64,000 nucleotides of DNA from Variovorax sp. 54 (GTDB taxonomy: Bacteria > Pseudomonadota > Gammaproteobacteria > Burkholderiales > Burkholderiaceae_C). Within the stretch, counting starts at the first letter, position 1, and every line of letters starts with the position of its first letter. Position numbers and translations under genes: made by a program. Location: positions 3,985,501-4,049,500 of the forward strand of contig NZ_PEFF01000001.1 in NCBI RefSeq assembly GCF_002754375.1. Direction: 5' to 3'. This document shows positions 47,524 to 64,000 of this stretch, piece after piece. Below the pieces are notes generated by a model. It worked only from the letters and a program-made list of their open reading frames with translations. It did no database searches and was not told the origin of the DNA.

Positions 47524-48423
47524 ATGAAAAAACAAGTATTGGCATTGGCTGTCGCAGCGCTCGCCACCAGCGGCGCCTTTGCACAGGCCAATGACACCCT
47601 GGCCAAGATCAAGGCCTCGGGCACCATCACCGAAGGCGTGCGTGAGTCCTCCGGCCTTTCGTACACGCTCGGCAATGGCCAGTACACCGGCTTCCACTAC
47701 GACGTCTGCGCCAACATCATCAAGGACCTCGAGAAGGCCGCCGGCAAGAAGCTCGAAGTCAAGTACCAGCCCGTGACCTCGCAGAACCGCATCCCCCTGG
47801 TGCAGAACGGCACCGTGGACATCGAGTGCGGCTCGACCACCAACAACGCCACCCGCCAGAAGGATGTGGCTTTCGGCGTGACCACCTACGTCGAAGAAAC
47901 CAAGATCGTCGTCAAGGCCAACTCGGGCATCAACTCGCTGGCCGACCTGAAGGACAAGACGGTTGCCACCACCACCGGCACCACGCCGCTGCAGACCGTG
48001 CGCAAGCAAAAGCGCGCCGAGAACCTGACCTTCAAGGAGGTCTACGGCAAGGACCACTCCGACAGCTTCCTGCTGCTGGAAACCGGCCGTGCCGACGCCT
48101 TCGTGATGGACGGTTCCATCCTGGCTGCCCTGGCCGCCAAGTCGAAGTCGCCCAAGGACTACAAGATCCTGAACGACGTGCTGGCCGTGGAACCCATCGC
48201 CATCATGATCCGCAAGGACGACCCGGCTTTCAAGAAGGCCGTGGACGACAGCATCAAGGCACAGGCCAAGTCGGGCGAGCTGACCAAGCTGTACGACAAG
48301 TGGTTCCTCAAGCCGATTCCCCCGGCCAACGTGACCATCAACCTGCCGCTCGGCGAAGCCACCAAGAACGCGTGGGCCAACCCGAACGACAAGCCCGCCG
48401 AAGAGTACGTCACCAAGGAATAA
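47524..48423 (+). CDS. gltI: Glutamate/aspartate ABC transporter substrate-binding protein
   Basis: A 299-residue secreted protein. A signal peptide (MKKQVLALAVAALATSGAFAQ) is followed by a periplasmic amino-acid-binding fold with ITEGVRESSGLSYTLGNGQ, YDVCANII and VDIECGSTTNNATRQK, closely matching GltI of dicarboxylic amino-acid importers. ATG 47524 has AGGAG 8 nt upstream. A hairpin after the gene should make its mRNA more abundant than that of the permeases. Confidence 0.93.
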   Translation: MKKQVLALAVAALATSGAFAQANDTLAKIKASGTITEGVRESSGLSYTLGNGQYTGFHYDVCANIIKDLEKAAGKKLEVKYQPVTSQNRIPLVQNGTVDIECGSTTNNATRQKDVAFGVTTYVEETKIVVKANSGINSLADLKDKTVATTTGTTPLQTVRKQKRAENLTFKEVYGKDHSDSFLLLETGRADAFVMDGSILAALAAKSKSPKDYKILNDVLAVEPIAIMIRKDDPAFKKAVDDSIKAQAKSGELTKLYDKWFLKPIPPANVTINLPLGEATKNAWANPNDKPAEEYVTKE

Positions 48424-58967: not shown

Positions 58968-59405
58968 AGTGAGTTCACTTCTAAAATTGGGCACGATGGC
59001 CGGAGTTGGCGTGGCAGAGGCCCTGCCGACCATGTAAGGCTAACAGCACAGGGCGAACTGAATCGCCCCGGCCTTTGTGGCCAGCTTTTCTTCCCGCTGG
59101 TAGTCGGAGCAGCCGCGTTGAAGGGCAGTTCACTGGCAAGAAGCGGACGTCAATTGCAGACGCACGACAGACCGCGATCGCTGCAAAGCAGTCGGTCGAC
59201 CTCTCGCATCGAAGGACCGCATCGGGCCCCTTCGCGAAGGCAGAGCCACCGGCTACAGTCGGCCAGGAGCAGTCGGTGGCTCTTAGGTAAAGCGGACACT
59301 CAACGTCGGAGTTGACCGGTGCGCAGTGGCGTTGCTCCGCAAGACGTATGTTCACGTACACAGCCTGCGGCGCAAAGCCGCTGCGTGTCCGTGTCGAACG
59401 ACCTG
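58968..59405. other. Intergenic region with attC site and two repeat copies
   Basis: 438 nt without a gene. It holds most of the attC site (59298-59411) and two minus-orientation matches to the short repeat seen between the array genes: 59132-59151 (GACGTCCGCTTCTTGCCAGT on the minus strand) and a partial one at 59259-59276. Confidence 0.55.
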
Positions 59406-59411
59406 TTAGAC
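59298..59411 (-). repeat. Integron attC recombination site (59-base element)
   Basis: Read on the minus strand, it starts with R'' GTCTAAC (RYYYAAC) and ends with R' GTTGAGT (GTTRRRY). The inner L boxes GTTCGAC and GGTCAAC lie 5 and 6 nt from them, the asymmetry expected of attC. The arms continue as an imperfect dyad (CGCAGCGGCTTTGCGCCGC against a near-matching partner). The site is 114 nt, within the known range. The GNAT stop codon TAA lies inside R''. Confidence 0.75.
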
Positions 59412-59966
59412 CACACTCGTTGTACTCCACTGAGCCTTAAGCAAAGCATATTGCAGAAGGTCGTGGTGCCGGCCTGCCCAGTACCCTGCATCCCGTTGAT
59501 GCCCCTCTTGCAGAAAGCCAAGCGTTGCGAGCAATGCCAGAGACGCCTTGTTGTCAGGGTGTACCTGCGCCTCGATTCGATTTAGTTGCACCTCTCGGAA
59601 CCCCCACGTGATAACTGCTTCTAGCGCTTCTCTTACGTATCCGCGCCCCTGATGCGCCGGAGCGATTTCGTATCCGACTACGCAGGATCTCCAGTTTCGA
59701 TTCCAGCGAAACAGGCCGCACGTACCAATCAGTCCTGGTCGGTCTTTCAGCTCCATGGCCCAGCGCGCTCCAGAAACCGGCTCTTTCCGCCAGCTCGCAA
59801 ACGTAGCGACTAGCTTCCTGGCGTCGTCAAGATTGGGAATCGGATCCGACCCGAACCATCGCATGTGCTCGTGGTCACCATGGATTTGAAGGAGACTTTC
59901 CGCATCCGATTCCAGAATCTCGCGCAGGGTGAGTCGGGATGTCTCGAGCGTTGGGTAGTCGACCAT
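59406..59966 (-). CDS. GNAT acetyltransferase (RimJ/RimL-like) in a gene cassette
   Basis: A 186-residue N-acetyltransferase with LETSRLTLREILESDAESLL, the acetyl-CoA loop region GYEIAPAHQGRGYVREAL and NRIEAQVHPDNKASLALLATLGF, as in RimL-type enzymes. The start ATG 59966 lies 12 nt after a GTTAGAC box, and the stop TAA is inside the GTCTAAC box of an attC site. Both are hallmarks of an integron cassette gene. The target (protein N-terminus, drug or amine) is unknown. Confidence 0.85.
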   Translation of the reverse strand: MVDYPTLETSRLTLREILESDAESLLQIHGDHEHMRWFGSDPIPNLDDARKLVATFASWRKEPVSGARWAMELKDRPGLIGTCGLFRWNRNWRSCVVGYEIAPAHQGRGYVREALEAVITWGFREVQLNRIEAQVHPDNKASLALLATLGFLQEGHQRDAGYWAGRHHDLLQYALLKAQWSTTSVV

Positions 59967-60346
59967 GAGTTGCCTGCGGTCTAACGTTTGACATGAGAGG
60001 CGGCGCCCGGCTTTCCGGGTGATGTATCTCGCAAACCTTGCGAAACAAACTGGACCGTGCGAGATATTCTGGACACTCATTCCTCCTGTAAGTGGCTTGC
60101 GGCCTGAATTTGCACAGGGATGCCTGTTTAAAACCCAGGTACAAAAATCCGCTAAACCCGGCAAGTGTGAAGTCAGCAAACTATAGCGTTGCCCGTAGAC
60201 AGGGACCGGGCCCGCCGACTGTACGTTCGGGCACCGATCAATCCGTTTTGAATCAAGGGCCGCTTTTGGGAAGAGGCCCCGTAGTCGGCTCAGGGCCCAA
60301 AGCCGCCGGTCGCCTTGCTCCAAAGCGGGCACTGCGACACAAGACC
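59967..60346. other. Intergenic region between the GNAT cassette and the small-gene array
   Basis: 380 nt with no accepted gene. It contains the half attC core and a diverged repeat copy near 60254-60270. A frame joined to the GNAT gene, beginning with a GGAGG site near 60075, could extend that protein by 36 residues but is judged less likely because it would read through the attC. Confidence 0.45.
59979..59999 (-). repeat. Half attC core site upstream of the GNAT gene
   Basis: On the minus strand the sequence ends ...CATGTCAAACGTTAGAC, an L box, a 6-nt spacer and an R' GTTAGAC box, 12 nt before the GNAT start. The partner half is not found upstream, so this is either a decayed attC or the scar of a recombination. 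Confidence 0.5.
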
Positions 60347-60733
60347 CTATTCGATTCCCACCGGCAAGCCAGACGCGCCATCCATCTTGCTGATGCGCCA
60401 GCGTCCTGGGTCATCGCGCTCAAAATCGATGTTGAAGTCAAAGCTCGAATTGACGCTAAGCAACAAGACACAAAACGCTTGTTCAGCGGAGCCCATTCGC
60501 TCGCGCAACGCCCAGGCCAATTCGCTCATTCGATTGAAGAACTCTGAGTTCCTCAACGCGGACAACAAGCTGATGTTGGCTCCGGCGACGTATGAAGCGT
60601 TCGACCCCGTCTTCAAGTGGTCCGCCTCGAATCTGAAGAATGCTCGGCTCCACCCCGGAACGTCACGCTGGAGCAAGTCCATGAAGGTCTTGGCCATCTC
60701 AACAACGATTTCGTCGCTACTCTGATTTGTCAT
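60347..60733 (-). CDS. Small hypothetical protein, possibly immunity-like
   Basis: A 128-residue acidic protein with MAKTFMDLLQRDVPGWSRAFFRFEAD and the end FNIDFERDDPGRWRISKMDG. I do not recognise a family with certainty; the shape (acidic, single domain, FDFEDP-like end) recalls YezG/DUF600-type immunity proteins. It is followed downstream by the GNAT cassette region and preceded by a repeat copy. Confidence 0.5.
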   Translation of the reverse strand: MTNQSSDEIVVEMAKTFMDLLQRDVPGWSRAFFRFEADHLKTGSNASYVAGANISLLSALRNSEFFNRMSELAWALRERMGSAEQAFCVLLLSVNSSFDFNIDFERDDPGRWRISKMDGASGLPVGIE

Positions 60734-60758
60734 TTGGGTTCGGTGCGAATGGGTAGCT

Positions 60759-60778
60759 CAATGTCCGGTCATGGCCGA
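60759..60778 (+). repeat. Array repeat copy 1
   Basis: CAATGTCCGGTCATGGCCGA, in the gap between the genes at 60347-60733 and 60818-61102. It matches the array consensus GAARGTCCGSTYCTGGCCGA at most positions. Confidence 0.6.
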
Positions 60779-60817
60779 ACTCGGCCGCAGTAACGAGGCG
60801 AGTCCATGAGTGCCCCT

Positions 60818-61102
60818 TCACGTGTCCCGCCTCCACACTCTGGTGACGTTCATGGTTTCATCCAGTTCGACCCAGAGGAGCGTGTTTGGCATGTGAAGAC
60901 CTGCCGGAAATTTGACTGCGGGCACATCACGCGGAGCACCGCTAGCAGCAAGTCCATTCCCAGGATGCAGAAGGATCCGTATCTCCCCCTTCGTCAGCGA
61001 TCCGAAGACGACGGCAGGAACCTTTTTCAGCCAATCGGCCGGGTACTTCTCTTCTGCGATCAAATGGTCCTCCTCGCCCCTATTCAATACATCGATTTGC
61101 AA
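60818..61102 (-). CDS. Small hypothetical protein with a doubtful start
   Basis: A frame of 94 residues starting at TTG 61102, because no ATG or GTG is available; the first conserved-looking residues are QIDVLNRGEEDHLIAEEKYPADW. The family is not recognised. The missing standard start directly after a repeat copy hints that the 5' end was lost or rearranged at the repeat. It could be a pseudogene. Confidence 0.45.
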   Translation of the reverse strand: MQIDVLNRGEEDHLIAEEKYPADWLKKVPAVVFGSLTKGEIRILLHPGNGLAASGAPRDVPAVKFPAGLHMPNTLLWVELDETMNVTRVWRRDT

Positions 61103-61111
61103 CGCACCCGC

Positions 61112-61131
61112 GAAGGTCGGCTTCTGGCCGC
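61112..61131 (+). repeat. Array repeat copy 2
   Basis: GAAGGTCGGCTTCTGGCCGC, filling most of the 36-nt gap between the genes at 60818-61102 and 61139-61513. Confidence 0.65.
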
Positions 61132-61138
61132 ATTCTGC

Positions 61139-61513
61139 CTATTGAGCAGCGATGCACGCCACAGCCGTTGCGGCCGTGGCTACGACGGAGTGCCATTCGG
61201 GAAGCTCGATGTACTCTGCATCGGAAAGCTTGGTGCCGTGCTTTGCGAAGACGGCTTCAATCGACGCAACTACCGCTGTAACTGTATCTGCCTCTGATGC
61301 ATCTTTGAGAATCCAGCCGATGGTCGAGTGGGGGTCAGATGCAAGCGCCGTATCGTCAAACAGAAAGTGCACGGCGTAGTCAAACTCGTCATGCTGCACG
61401 CCATCTTCGAGCAGTTGATCGACCCACACACGGCGCTGATACTGCGGGTCGGCGAGGCCCTGCAGGTACTCGATGAGTTCCTGCCGCATTTCGGGATAGG
61501 TAATGTGGTTCAT
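61139..61513 (-). CDS. SCO4402-family protein
   Basis: A 124-residue protein with LIEYLQGLADPQYQRRVWVDQLLED, DYAVHFLFDDTALASDP and IGWILKDASEAD, closely matching the SCO4402 family of unknown function found in scattered bacteria. Its end runs straight into a repeat copy, and its start lies 57 nt from the divergent SUKH gene. The small orphan context suggests a mobile cassette gene. Confidence 0.75.
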   Translation of the reverse strand: MNHITYPEMRQELIEYLQGLADPQYQRRVWVDQLLEDGVQHDEFDYAVHFLFDDTALASDPHSTIGWILKDASEADTVTAVVASIEAVFAKHGTKLSDAEYIELPEWHSVVATAATAVACIAAQ

Positions 61514-61524
61514 GAGAACTTGTT

Positions 61525-61544
61525 GAAGGTCCGCTTCTGGCCGA
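61525..61544 (+). repeat. Array repeat copy 3 (closest to consensus)
   Basis: GAAGGTCCGCTTCTGGCCGA, between the divergent SCO4402 and SUKH genes. Confidence 0.7.
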
Positions 61545-61569
61545 ATCGCGTCATGGTAGCTTCAGCAGG

Positions 61570-61980
61570 ATGCATCCCACGTCCCGCGTGCTCATTTTGA
61601 AGCTCTGGTCGGCTCGACCACAGGAAATCCGGTATGTGCCCGCCACCGAAGACGCCCTGAGCTCCTTCGAGAAGGAATTTGGCCCGATTCCACAAGACTT
61701 TCGCTGGTTCCTCGCCTCGTGCGGCGGTGGGGTCGTCGGCAGCGAATGGGTCGATGGAATCGAACAGCTCGCCGGCTCACACCGAAAGCACTTGCGAGAG
61801 CGAACGGCCGGCGAGTGGAAGGCGGATTTCTTTCTCATCGGATGGGATGGCGCAGGGAACCCCTTCGGCATCAACCCCGCGACTGGTGAGCTTGTAGCTG
61901 AGCTCGAGGGAAGCGATAAGGAAGTGCGGCTGCTATCGCCGTCGATTGAAGCCTTCTTACTGAAGGGCATCATCGCTTGA
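61570..61980 (+). CDS. SMI1/KNR4 (SUKH) family protein
   Basis: A 136-residue protein with LSSFEKEFGPIPQDFRWFLASCGGG and DFFLIGWDGAGNPFGINPATGELVAE, the core of the SUKH superfamily. In bacteria these proteins are often immunity factors against toxins delivered by neighbours, or lone orphans. No toxin gene is adjacent here. ATG 61570 follows CAGCAGG. Confidence 0.82.
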   Translation: MHPTSRVLILKLWSARPQEIRYVPATEDALSSFEKEFGPIPQDFRWFLASCGGGVVGSEWVDGIEQLAGSHRKHLRERTAGEWKADFFLIGWDGAGNPFGINPATGELVAELEGSDKEVRLLSPSIEAFLLKGIIA

Positions 61981-61987
61981 GCGTGCG

Positions 61988-62002
61988 GCTGCTTCTGGCC
62001 GC
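61988..62002 (+). repeat. Array repeat copy 4 (partial)
   Basis: GCTGCTTCTGGCCGC, matching the second half of the consensus, in the 55-nt gap between the SUKH gene and the YG-repeat gene. Confidence 0.5.
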
Positions 62003-62035
62003 TTATCTACGGCGCCTTCTCGTCAGAGTCCACCA

Positions 62036-62479
62036 CTACCGTCGACAAAAGGCATCGGAAAGCTTTTCGAGGTCATCGAATTCCTCAGCAGCATCCGTCA
62101 GCGTGACGAGTCCTTTGATGGTCGTTCGCTTGGAGATGTAGGGGTTGGCGGATAGATAGCCGTAGAAGTTCCCCTCCTTGTCGACGACGGCGGGTGCATC
62201 GGTGCTGTACTTGTTCCAGGGCGACGCACTGTTGTACTTCGAACCATAGGTGCCGTACGGGTTCCAGATGCTGTCCGATTGGTATCGTGAACCGAACTGA
62301 CCGTAGGCATTGCAAACCGAGCCGCCGTCGTAGCTTCCGCAGTTCAAGCAGCCAAGAAACGTCTTGTGGCCGGTGCCTCCAAAGAGCAAGAGCGCCGTCG
62401 TTTGCGCAGAGGCTATGGAACCCAAATCTGAAAGGCTGGCCGCGGCAATCAGCCAGACCAACCGCCGACAATTGAACAT
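62036..62479 (-). CDS. Secreted YG-repeat protein of unknown function
   Basis: A 147-residue protein with a signal peptide ending IASAQ, then a GCLNC motif and a 16-residue repeat (NAYGQFGSRYQSDSIW then NPYGTYGSKYNSASPW), and a final SDAFC. The four Cys may form disulfides. The pattern is found in several environmental bacteria but has no known function. ATG 62479 has a GGAG site 6 nt upstream and is preferred over ATG 62491. Confidence 0.75.
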   Translation of the reverse strand: MFNCRRLVWLIAAASLSDLGSIASAQTTALLLFGGTGHKTFLGCLNCGSYDGGSVCNAYGQFGSRYQSDSIWNPYGTYGSKYNSASPWNKYSTDAPAVVDKEGNFYGYLSANPYISKRTTIKGLVTLTDAAEEFDDLEKLSDAFCRR

Positions 62480-62604
62480 GCCCTTCTCCATCCTTATTTT
62501 TCTAGATGCTACGTTCGCGCGCGCGATTGCGCTAGTTCTACAAACGAGGATATCTCACAGGCTGCCTAAAGTGTCGTTGCATGGTCCGACTGGCGGTTGA
62601 GCGG

Positions 62605-62624
62605 GAAAGTCCGGTCCTGGCCGA
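62605..62624 (+). repeat. Array repeat copy 5
   Basis: GAAAGTCCGGTCCTGGCCGA, between the divergent YG-repeat gene and the ferredoxin gene. Confidence 0.65.
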
Positions 62625-62678
62625 CTGGAGCCGGCGGCATGCTACCTTCCGGGCCGATACGGCTCGTTGGAATCATAG

Positions 62679-62912
62679 ATGGACGTACATCAGCCTCGCC
62701 GCCCGCACCGCCTCGGTTGGCTGCCCGCTGTCGACGCCGCGCGTTGCACGGGCTGCGGTTGGTGCGTCGCCGCGTGCAACCTTCACCTTCTCAGCCTCGA
62801 AGTCCAGCAATGGAAGAAGGCGTCGACGCTTCAAGATGCGGATCGGTGCACGGGCTGCAGCGATTGCGCAGTGACTTGTCCTTTTCATGCGATCACCATG
62901 CGAAAGGGCTGA
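62679..62912 (+). CDS. Small 2x[4Fe-4S] ferredoxin-like protein
   Basis: A 77-residue protein with two clusters of Cys: CTGCGWCVAAC and CTGCSDCAVTCP, each ready to bind a 4Fe-4S cluster. It would act as a one-electron carrier. No redox partner gene lies near. ATG 62679 is the only reasonable start. It is the last gene before a stretch of unknowns. Confidence 0.8.
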   Translation: MDVHQPRRPHRLGWLPAVDAARCTGCGWCVAACNLHLLSLEVQQWKKASTLQDADRCTGCSDCAVTCPFHAITMRKG

Positions 62913-63015
62913 AACGCCCTGGGCGCGCGGCTCGCCGCCCAGGCAATCCGTAGACCCGGACGCGTGAGCCCGACGGTCACGAGTGTCGGGTCCTAGCCCG
63001 GATTCTGCCCGACGC

Positions 63016-63330
63016 TCAAACCTCTCGAAGCTGCTCGGCAAACACAACAAAATTGCTGCTTCCTGCGGTGGATTCAACTCCCCAGGGTCGCGTCGTCACA
63101 GCGCTGACCAACGAGCGGCCTTCCGAATCAACCCACTGCGACTCGACCTCGCAAGCGATGACACCAAGCGCGGGAAGCGCACCGATGACGACCGCCGTGG
63201 AGGTCACGATGGCATCCTTCTCCACGAACCGGTGTGTCTGCCCTTTCGCATCGACCAAGAGGCATTCCACGAGGGGCGGATATGCGCTGTCGTCAACCAC
63301 TTGCGCGATTTCAACGACGATGGCTTTCAT
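63016..63330 (-). CDS. Small hypothetical protein
   Basis: A 104-residue protein starting MKAIVVEIAQVVDD, with ECLLVDAKGQTHRFVEKDAIVT and GVIACEVESQWVDSEGR, a beta-rich pattern seen in small orphan proteins of environmental proteobacteria. ATG 63330 with AGGA 7 nt upstream is chosen; ATG 63354 is in frame. The function is unknown. Confidence 0.6.
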   Translation of the reverse strand: MKAIVVEIAQVVDDSAYPPLVECLLVDAKGQTHRFVEKDAIVTSTAVVIGALPALGVIACEVESQWVDSEGRSLVSAVTTRPWGVESTAGSSNFVVFAEQLREV

Positions 63331-63482
63331 CGGGAGTCCTATCTCAGTGACCAAGGTGATGGTCTGCGGCCGGCTTCAGCGGCTCATCCGCAATGTGGCG
63401 AACCGCCACGGCGCGATGCTACGATTTGTATCGAGGGAGTCGGGTGTCGAACCCAAGCTTTCGCCCCGACCAAATCGAATCT

Positions 63483-64000
63483 ATGCAACCCAAACGAAGC
63501 ATCTTCCGCGGCCGTGCAGCATTTCTGAATCGTTGGGGCTGGGGCGAATACGGAATGCTTGCCGCGTTCTGGGCGGTCCTTTCAATTCCCCTCCATGTTC
63601 ACGGCTGGGGGTGGTGGTCGATTCTTAGTCTTCCAAGCTTCTTTGCTCTCATAGTGGCCGCGATAGCGGTCGCCGAACGCTTTGCGAGGCGCCTGCCACG
63701 TTTGAATGCAACGGACGACCATCTCATCGAGTTTTACACCCACCTAGCGGGCACCACCAAGCATGGGACGTTGACCTGTAATCGCGGCGTGCCACACGCG
63801 AGTTGGACGACCACGAGTGAGAGTGGAACGAAGACGACCGCGAATGCACTGCTGAGCCGCGACAGGTTCGCCAAACATTGGACGAGCGCTGGAGCCCGGT
63901 ACCTGAACCCCTACAAAGTCTCCGCCGGCGGCGTAGTCCCGGACCCTGGGGCGCACTACGTCGTCAACGTACGGTTCACCAGGCAGGGTGAGACTTACGG
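63483..64000 (+). CDS. Partial membrane protein of unknown function, cut by the window end
   Basis: An open frame from ATG 63483 to the window end (172 codons, no stop). It begins MQPKRSIFRGRAAFLNRWGW, then shows two hydrophobic segments near residues 24-45 and 47-66, and a soluble region with YTHLAGTTKHGTLTCNRG. No family is recognised. Codon use is consistent with a real gene. The end is missing. Confidence 0.5.
   Translation, partial: MQPKRSIFRGRAAFLNRWGWGEYGMLAAFWAVLSIPLHVHGWGWWSILSLPSFFALIVAAIAVAERFARRLPRLNATDDHLIEFYTHLAGTTKHGTLTCNRGVPHASWTTTSESGTKTTANALLSRDRFAKHWTSAGARYLNPYKVSAGGVVPDPGAHYVVNVRFTRQGETY

Follow-up and report, generated by a model that had tools for sequence, protein, structure and literature searches.

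Integrons, with their IntI integrase, attI site and attC gene cassettes, are the textbook route by which bacteria stockpile and shuffle single genes, and clusters of attC sites without an integrase (CALINs) are their integrase-less counterpart. Catalytic-domain-only tyrosine recombinases of ~200 aa are also familiar, from the FimB/FimE-type invertases. A further kind of array, termed rAID, occurs in Bacteroidales and consists of orphan immunity genes associated with a tyrosine recombinase; how these arrays are generated is, according to a preprint, a subject of active research (PMC12247911). Here we analyze a stretch of 64,000 nucleotides from Variovorax sp. 54 (hereafter the window; positions 3985501–4049500 of a single 6.64-Mb contig), in which small genes are separated one by one by a short repeat. 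With a probability of about 78%, we read it as an array of mobile gene cassettes with sites of ~28 nt, which would be exchanged at a six-base core, TGGCCG, most likely by a small tyrosine recombinase. Among the papers listed in searches of open-access PMC, which does not cover subscription papers and most preprints, no title named this repeat or system, and four motif strings of the site had no match there.

Integrons and the Bacteroidales rAID arrays appear to be the closest analogues of this system. As in integrons, small genes each carry one co-oriented site, gene diversity is great, arrays without an integrase are common and, in some loci, an end-anchored tyrosine recombinase with a site upstream reads away from the array. 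The architecture is integron-like, but the integrase and the site are not: the array integrase is not IntI, has ~206 aa and lacks the N-terminal core-binding domain, while the site has the core TGGCCG, no RYYYAAC/GTTRRRY pair and mostly no hairpin. A tyrosine recombinase, co-oriented short genes and an intergenic motif are shared with rAID arrays, although many arrays here have no recombinase; SUKH immunity-like genes are also common to both (PMC12247911). The two differ in phylum, in the mixed gene content found here, and in the exchange point, mapped here to six bases.

An earlier note on this DNA, made from its letters alone, had reported a same-direction repeat in each of five consecutive gaps of a small-gene array, and this holds. 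With up to three mismatches, the consensus matched at 60759, 61112, 61525, and 62605, always on the plus strand, against 0.07 matches expected by chance (100 shuffles; maximum 1). The whole site reads GAAnGWCCGSTTnTGGCCGAnTGnnGCC (~28 nt). Alignment of 35 copies from the window's genome and the genomes G155 and G180 gave GAAnGTCCGGTTnTGGCCGAnTGnnGCC. A weight matrix, whose coordinates begin at the G of GWCC, was built from 35 copies, six of them from the window array. Over the whole window, the matrix gave eight matches scoring at least 13, and none in the reversed control. Five are the plus-strand recombination sites of the array: site 1 at 60763–60777 (score 29.2; core 60772–60777; reported earlier as 60759–60778), site 2 at 61116–61130 (33.1; core 61125–61130), site 3 at 61529–61543 (31.7; core 61538–61543), site 4 at 61987–62001 (19.7; core 61996–62001), and site 5 at 62609–62623 (31.3; core 62618–62623). 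The sixth, on the minus strand at 59260–59274 (27.5), is an inverted site of the other array arm, and two further matches lie at 48029 (13.2) and 55293 (14.5). Site 4, which the earlier note lists as partial (61988–62002), is a genuine copy and forms the edge of a cassette also present in G180. There is exactly one like-oriented copy in each of the five consecutive gaps between listed open reading frames (ORFs), besides the inverted copy and decayed copies.

Three more diverged or inverted matches had also been proposed, with a mixed outcome. The one at 59259–59276 is the genuine inverted site; at 59132–59151, on the minus strand, the conserved left flank contains a worn, site-like copy that relatives lacking an array here have too; and the match at 60254–60270 scores below 8. 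The core of the worn copy is TTGCCA in the window and in G155, and TTGCTG in the loci L087–L090, which have no array at this place; the worn sequence adjoins the point where the array starts. A decayed plus-strand site with the core TAGCCC (62985–62999; score 10.1) spans the start, at 62998, of homology to a single cassette of G210, and because this homology stops at 63364, another worn joint is suggested at that position. The array extends from the inverted site at 59274 to a last, intact site 172 bp beyond the window end (L031:9172; genome position 4049672), continuing past the window. With plus sites from 60763 onward following the inverted one at 59274, it looks like a small two-armed array.

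Searches of Variovorax and of other genomes, in a collection holding one genome per species, placed the site between small genes in many other loci. Sixty-four loci from 45 genomes of the genus, picked for an integrase or for top site matches, contained 630 sites at a threshold score of 13 (14 in the reversed control), and the 60 loci outside the matrix training contained 586 (13 in the control); because of this selection, site densities are not to be taken as genome averages. Neighboring sites (150–2000 bp apart; median spacing 526 bp) pointed in the same direction in 442 of 466 cases and in opposite directions in 24, and same-orientation runs reached 25 sites. Two-armed arrays, with a minus block followed by a plus block, were seen in L235 (17 + 13, one stray), L239 (5 + 16), L252 (7 + 10), and L253 (9 + 7). 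Same-direction pairs exactly 36–37 bp apart occurred 37 times in the 64 loci (for example, L241 3164/3200), with a few more at 78–82 bp; these are perhaps composite sites or emptied cassettes.

At E ≤ 0.05, a sequence-only site model matched every one of the 101 genus genomes, with only two to five matches in many of them, a number to which chance can contribute. There were 23 in the window's genome, 43 in G151, and 60 (among at most 61 scored) in G162, which has the most in the genus and is without the small integrase at E ≤ 1e-20. At E ≤ 0.01, 19 matches were found in the window's genome, and 15 of the best 16 fall into five clusters rather than being spread evenly. Among 300 genomes of the order, 86 had a match at E ≤ 0.01 (12 each in G284 and G303, 10 in G539, and seven in G255); site arrays or pairs occur in other families of the order too. 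A single stretch of G255 contains ten minus-strand sites, and G539 and G284 have inverted site pairs in which the partner core is GGGTCG. Separators in other genera (L054:5541–5655 of G105, L301, and L303) take the form of inverted pairs or of one complete palindrome, a shape closer to attC; one arm has TGGCCG and, in L301 and L303, the other has GGGTCG. De novo 11-mer repeats, collected from 37 integrase loci and three loci of G105, brought up the site only in G105. A different 11-mer, GATTTCCTGCA, was seen near a Rhodoferax integrase (L159:18019–20025), in four same-direction copies about 0.5–1 kb apart; it may be either a coding repeat or a repeat of another type.

Of 422 intervals examined between like-oriented sites, 421 contain an ORF of 50 aa or longer, usually a single gene. 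The median cassette ORF has 138 aa and fills 77% of its interval. In the window, the genes between the repeats do point both ways, as first described, but this is the exception in the family, in which clear non-integrase cassette genes are antiparallel to the site in 271 of 290 cases and parallel in 19 (122 of 412 ORF calls were omitted, their strand being unclear). The 289 cassette proteins fell into 238 families (BLASTP, E 1e-5), 200 of which are singletons. Representatives of 140 families were scanned against the libraries, with 98 left out, and Pfam matched 60 families and NCBIfam 75. Among the top 25 of the 60 Pfam families were five SUKH, four GNAT, two Barstar, and one each of Imm33, an Arr-type rifampin ADP-ribosyltransferase, and a glyoxalase, the rest being enzymes or of no known function. 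The traits of rAID arrays, a Bacteroidales host and orphan immunity genes of the type VI secretion system (T6SS), are absent here, given the Variovorax host and the five SUKH, two Barstar and one Imm33 just listed among 140 cassettes. An anti-phage island was rejected as a description, as PADLOC matched four families only, one cassette each, among the 140 representatives.

It had been suggested from the window alone that genes are gained as modules by recombination at the repeat, and the comparison between genomes supports both parts of this suggestion. We used high-scoring segment pairs (HSPs) of 150 bp or more, with E up to 1e-15, that connect two genomes, overlap no integrase, and lie in arrays with three or more sites. 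Among the 118 array-internal HSPs between genomes (31 genomes), both ends lay on a site in 58, one end in 41, and none in 19, and random shifts placed both ends on a site in 1.1%. At identities of at least 90%, both ends were on sites in 23 of 30. The junctions thus vary between genomes at the site, and single gene-plus-site units are common to genomes in which they have different neighbors. A reading of the site as a promoter or regulatory element was abandoned, since single cassettes travel with it.

To locate the point of exchange, identity was followed along the sites, one base at a time, in 36 pairs of shared cassettes that had been selected for having their ends close to a site. The leading site shows agreement in 0.31–0.42 of the pairs at the variable bases preceding the core and in 0.81–1.0 at bases 9–16. 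At the trailing site, bases 0–8 agree in 0.64–1.0 and the core in 0.86–1.0, followed by 0.31–0.75 at bases 16–24 and 0.24–0.30 from base 25 on. Because identity rises and falls there, the exchange takes place in, or at the edge of, TGGCCG. The clearest individual junctions show the same steps: L141 and L142 are 99.5% identical from TGGCCG onward and differ before it, and L145 and L146 (97%) are identical up to the core and differ after it. Twelve candidates were found for cassette pairs adjacent in one genome and separated in another; most are flank rearrangements, none shows a clean empty site, and one (G155/G217) fits cassettes inserted between neighbors.

The window locus itself varies between relatives. 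The segment 58400–66000, in window numbering, was searched in the 101 genus genomes. The last part of the conserved left flank occupies 58981–59193, homology stopping at 59170–59193 in G157, G219, G172, and G176, and at 59232 in G155; right-flank homology resumes outside the window, at 64212–64394, in G155, G235, G157, G172, and G176. Between the same flanks (94%–97% identical), G155 holds a different array of ~11 kb, with 18 scoring sites outside the integrase gene, in one direction, and no stretch of 120 bp or more in common with the window array. In G157, G172, and G176, no array separates the two flank homologies, which are near each other, a neighboring segment being rearranged in some. 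Since the same flanks enclose another array or none, the window locus is an acquisition locus. A 545-aa gene of the G155 array (L086:4376–6013) weakly matches Tli3, a family of T6SS immunity proteins (17.2 bits; cut-off 27).

Some arrays contain, inside or at their end, a gene for a tyrosine recombinase of 206–207 aa with the catalytic domain only; in G155 and G180, the 207-aa gene lies within the array. The protein matches PF00589 (E 7.5e-17) and has only weak matches to the XerA, XerC, XerD, and IntI models (for IntI, TIGR02249, E 0.003 and 16.9 bits against a cut-off of 265) and to the DNA invertase model NF007371 (E 0.0013). Residues R58, K86, H155, R158, H181, and Y190, which we take to be catalytic, are invariant in 11 members; among 22 members, R158 and Y190 are conserved in at least 90% and the other four are invariant. 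The AlphaFold model has no domain ahead of the catalytic one, and its fold matches include XerA, XerH, Cre, and an integron integrase. In its size of ~200 aa and its missing core-binding domain, the enzyme resembles the FimB/FimE-type invertases, but no inversion switch was seen here and the enzyme is tied to cassette arrays and solitary units.

This enzyme is associated with the sites in the genus and beyond it. At E ≤ 1e-20, it is present in 42 of the 101 genus genomes, covering at least 187 of 207 residues in 32 of these, and a site lies within 260 bp of the integrase gene in 16 of 22 genus loci. Solitary genes annotated "tyrosine-type recombinase/integrase" in Burkholderiales and on plasmids belong to the same protein family, and 34 of 69 such loci from other taxa have a TGGCCG-type site within 260 bp (reversed controls 0); they differ from the arrays in that, where both ends were seen (12 of 69), a single integrase gene lies between two inward sites ~870 bp apart, with no array. 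Similar solitary units whose flanks differ were compared pairwise in other Burkholderiales; six of the 24 pairs shown (of 44) have their right end exactly at CGGCC or CGGCCA, including L222/L224 (99.9%) and L195/L199 (98%). In G105, from another genus of the family, the integrase gene adjoins a site. Elsewhere in Burkholderiales and on plasmids, the protein family has at least 8000 matches at E ≤ 1e-20; it is found on 443 of 72,556 plasmid records, clinical genera among them (Pseudomonas aeruginosa, Klebsiella, Escherichia), and in five of 50,697 phage records.

The gene occurs in the arrays in two forms. IntA is itself a cassette, with a site 64–89 bp past its stop codon in nine of the 10 loci scored and a decayed one in the tenth. 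IntB lies at the outer array end, reading away from the array (L129, L144, L145, L146, L141, and L142), with an intact site 161 bp upstream in the first four of these six loci and, ~100 bp downstream, an inverted site whose core has decayed in all six. Many integrase loci are not of the anchored type.

From these observations, we propose that a cassette would typically consist of one small gene and one copy of the site. Two direct sites would recombine over their common core, the gene between them leaving as a circle with one site, and this circle could enter another site. The small tyrosine recombinase (206–207 aa) would most likely catalyze the exchange, and the non-palindromic core would force all sites into one orientation. 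The anchored recombinase may derive from a mobile unit with two ends, one of which was lost, and may now serve as a platform for capture, corresponding to intI and attI; the step from two ends to one, capture at the anchor, and any benefit from the genes are likewise presumed. Since the window's genome is without the enzyme, its arrays would be remnants or were once served by an enzyme now lost.

Several observations weigh against this proposal. At E ≤ 1e-20, the enzyme is missing from 59 of the 101 genus genomes, the window's own included, and some of these are site-rich (G162, 60; G151, 43); the number of sites is only modestly higher with the enzyme (median 17.5 vs. 11; Mann-Whitney p 0.003). 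There is no scoring site nearby in six of 22 genus and 35 of 69 other-taxa integrase loci, and none of the 11 loci fetched for their sites from other genera of the order has the small integrase at E ≤ 1e-5. The site upstream of the integrase has been lost in L141 and L142, two nearly identical loci, the left end is off the core in several solitary pairs (L221/L222, L222/L224), and the AlphaFold model is fair only (mean predicted local distance difference test, pLDDT, 79 at best and 43–68 in the others). In addition, 60 of the 118 HSPs lack a site at one or both ends, and HSPs between diverged genes tend to stop in intergenic DNA anyway, inflating the raw count, a bias against which the high-identity subset and the base-by-base identity step are a guard.

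The arrays could also be real and their cassettes moved by another enzyme, such as an Xer protein of the host, the integrase of a phage or island, or some other recombinase, the small integrase being a frequent passenger. The many arrays without it, including all 11 site loci from other genera, fit this explanation, as does IntA, which carries a downstream site like any other cassette gene; the window's genome even has another tyrosine recombinase (6536336–6536872) ~6.5 kb from a small site cluster at 6543338, a further point against our proposal. However, solitary integrase units in other genera end in these very sites, the anchored copies retain the site 161 bp upstream in four of six loci, and, in the seven other genomes searched, the contigs of the fetched arrays contain no Phage_integrase match at E ≤ 1e-6 less than 170 kb away from them. 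We therefore consider a passenger role for the small integrase rather improbable.

The layout of small genes and co-oriented sites ~0.5 kb apart, with an end integrase reading away, would equally be expected of ordinary integron cassettes, or of an integrase-less cluster with unusual attC, moved by IntI, and the GNAT, SUKH, and Arr-type genes resemble integron cargo. This is largely refuted, and we think it very unlikely, in line with the initial impression of a cassette array without standard attC. The IntI model was found in only two of the 101 genus genomes at E ≤ 1e-50 (one over the cut-off), and not in the window's genome. In 1.16 Mb there were 36 attC-like core pairs, two of them within 30 bp of any of the 630 sites; the sites showed no clear excess folding, with a mean z of about −0.5 against −0.4 for mid-cassette DNA (120 of 305 sampled); and the crossover lies in TGGCCG, not GTTRRRY. 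These attC and folding tests are without a positive control, because the locus of the one IntI over the cut-off (G194:C42, L270) had no attC-like pair, with the pattern used, in the 20 kb around it. In a site subtype, ACTGTAGCC (117 of 474 sites), an inverted half-site lies downstream in 16% at +40–62 and in 29% at +64–90 (controls 1%–3%), and a separator of G105 forms a complete palindrome of 95 bp (z −8.8), so that a hairpin form of the site may be ancestral or used elsewhere. Scarcely credible are insertions like repetitive extragenic palindromic (REP) sequences or miniature inverted-repeat transposable elements, with shared units from ordinary homologous recombination in conserved genes, which would suit the palindromic copy of G105 and the inverted pairs of other genera but not one orientation over up to 25 sites with usually one gene per interval, nor 97%–99% homology that stops inside the repeat instead of running on, nor genus sites that are mostly not hairpins; the ~15 shared nucleotides are also short for homologous recombination. 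In REP/RAYT systems, short palindromic repeats are mobilized by a Y1 transposase.

Returning to cassette exchange by the small recombinase, we lean slightly toward regarding it as a second, independent form of gene-cassette capture in Proteobacteria, in which a solitary catalytic-domain-only recombinase became an anchor by losing one end, and in which a double-stranded six-base core is used, not a folded single-stranded attC. If this is true, the platform may supply small genes well beyond the genus, given the enzyme family's presence on plasmids. A parallel cassette system, distinct in both enzyme and joint, would account for a large pool of small orphan genes and would show how a cassette platform can arise; the site would allow site-based mining of uncharacterized genes, and the mapped core would be a testable model for rAID arrays.

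The window cassettes carry genes that are unrelated in annotation. The first (~60772–61130) has a minus-strand gene for 94 aa of no known family (60818–61102; TTG start in the ORF list), and the second (~61125–61543) a minus-strand gene of the DUF7945/SCO4402 family (61139–61513). The third (~61538–62001) encodes, on the plus strand, an immunity-like SUKH-1 (SMI1/KNR4) protein (61570–61980); a homologue of this cassette (61548–62004) is present in G180, 81% identical and with other neighbors. It is followed by a minus-strand gene for 151 aa without Pfam or NCBIfam match, called a YG-repeat protein in the earlier note (62036–62491; cassette ~61996–62623), and by a plus-strand ferredoxin-like gene of the 4Fe-4S families (62679–62912; cassette ~62618–62999). 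The minus-strand gene at 63016–63354, for 112 aa of no known family, has its single-cassette homologue in G210 (window 62998–63364, 80%) and another in G195, with no scoring sites around the latter. The last gene before the outer site at 4049672 is an open frame on the plus strand running past the window end (63393–64000; ORF list). In the center of the two arms, between the inverted site and site 1, the ORF list has a minus-strand gene for 128 aa of no known family (60347–60733), next to a minus-strand GNAT acetyltransferase gene (59406–59966; the listed ORF reaches 60332, and the ATG at 59966 was read by eye). The GNAT gene is flanked, on the plus strand, by GTTAGAC (59405–59411) and GTCTAAC (59979–59985), which we take to resemble integron core heptamers, and it may be an old true integron cassette.

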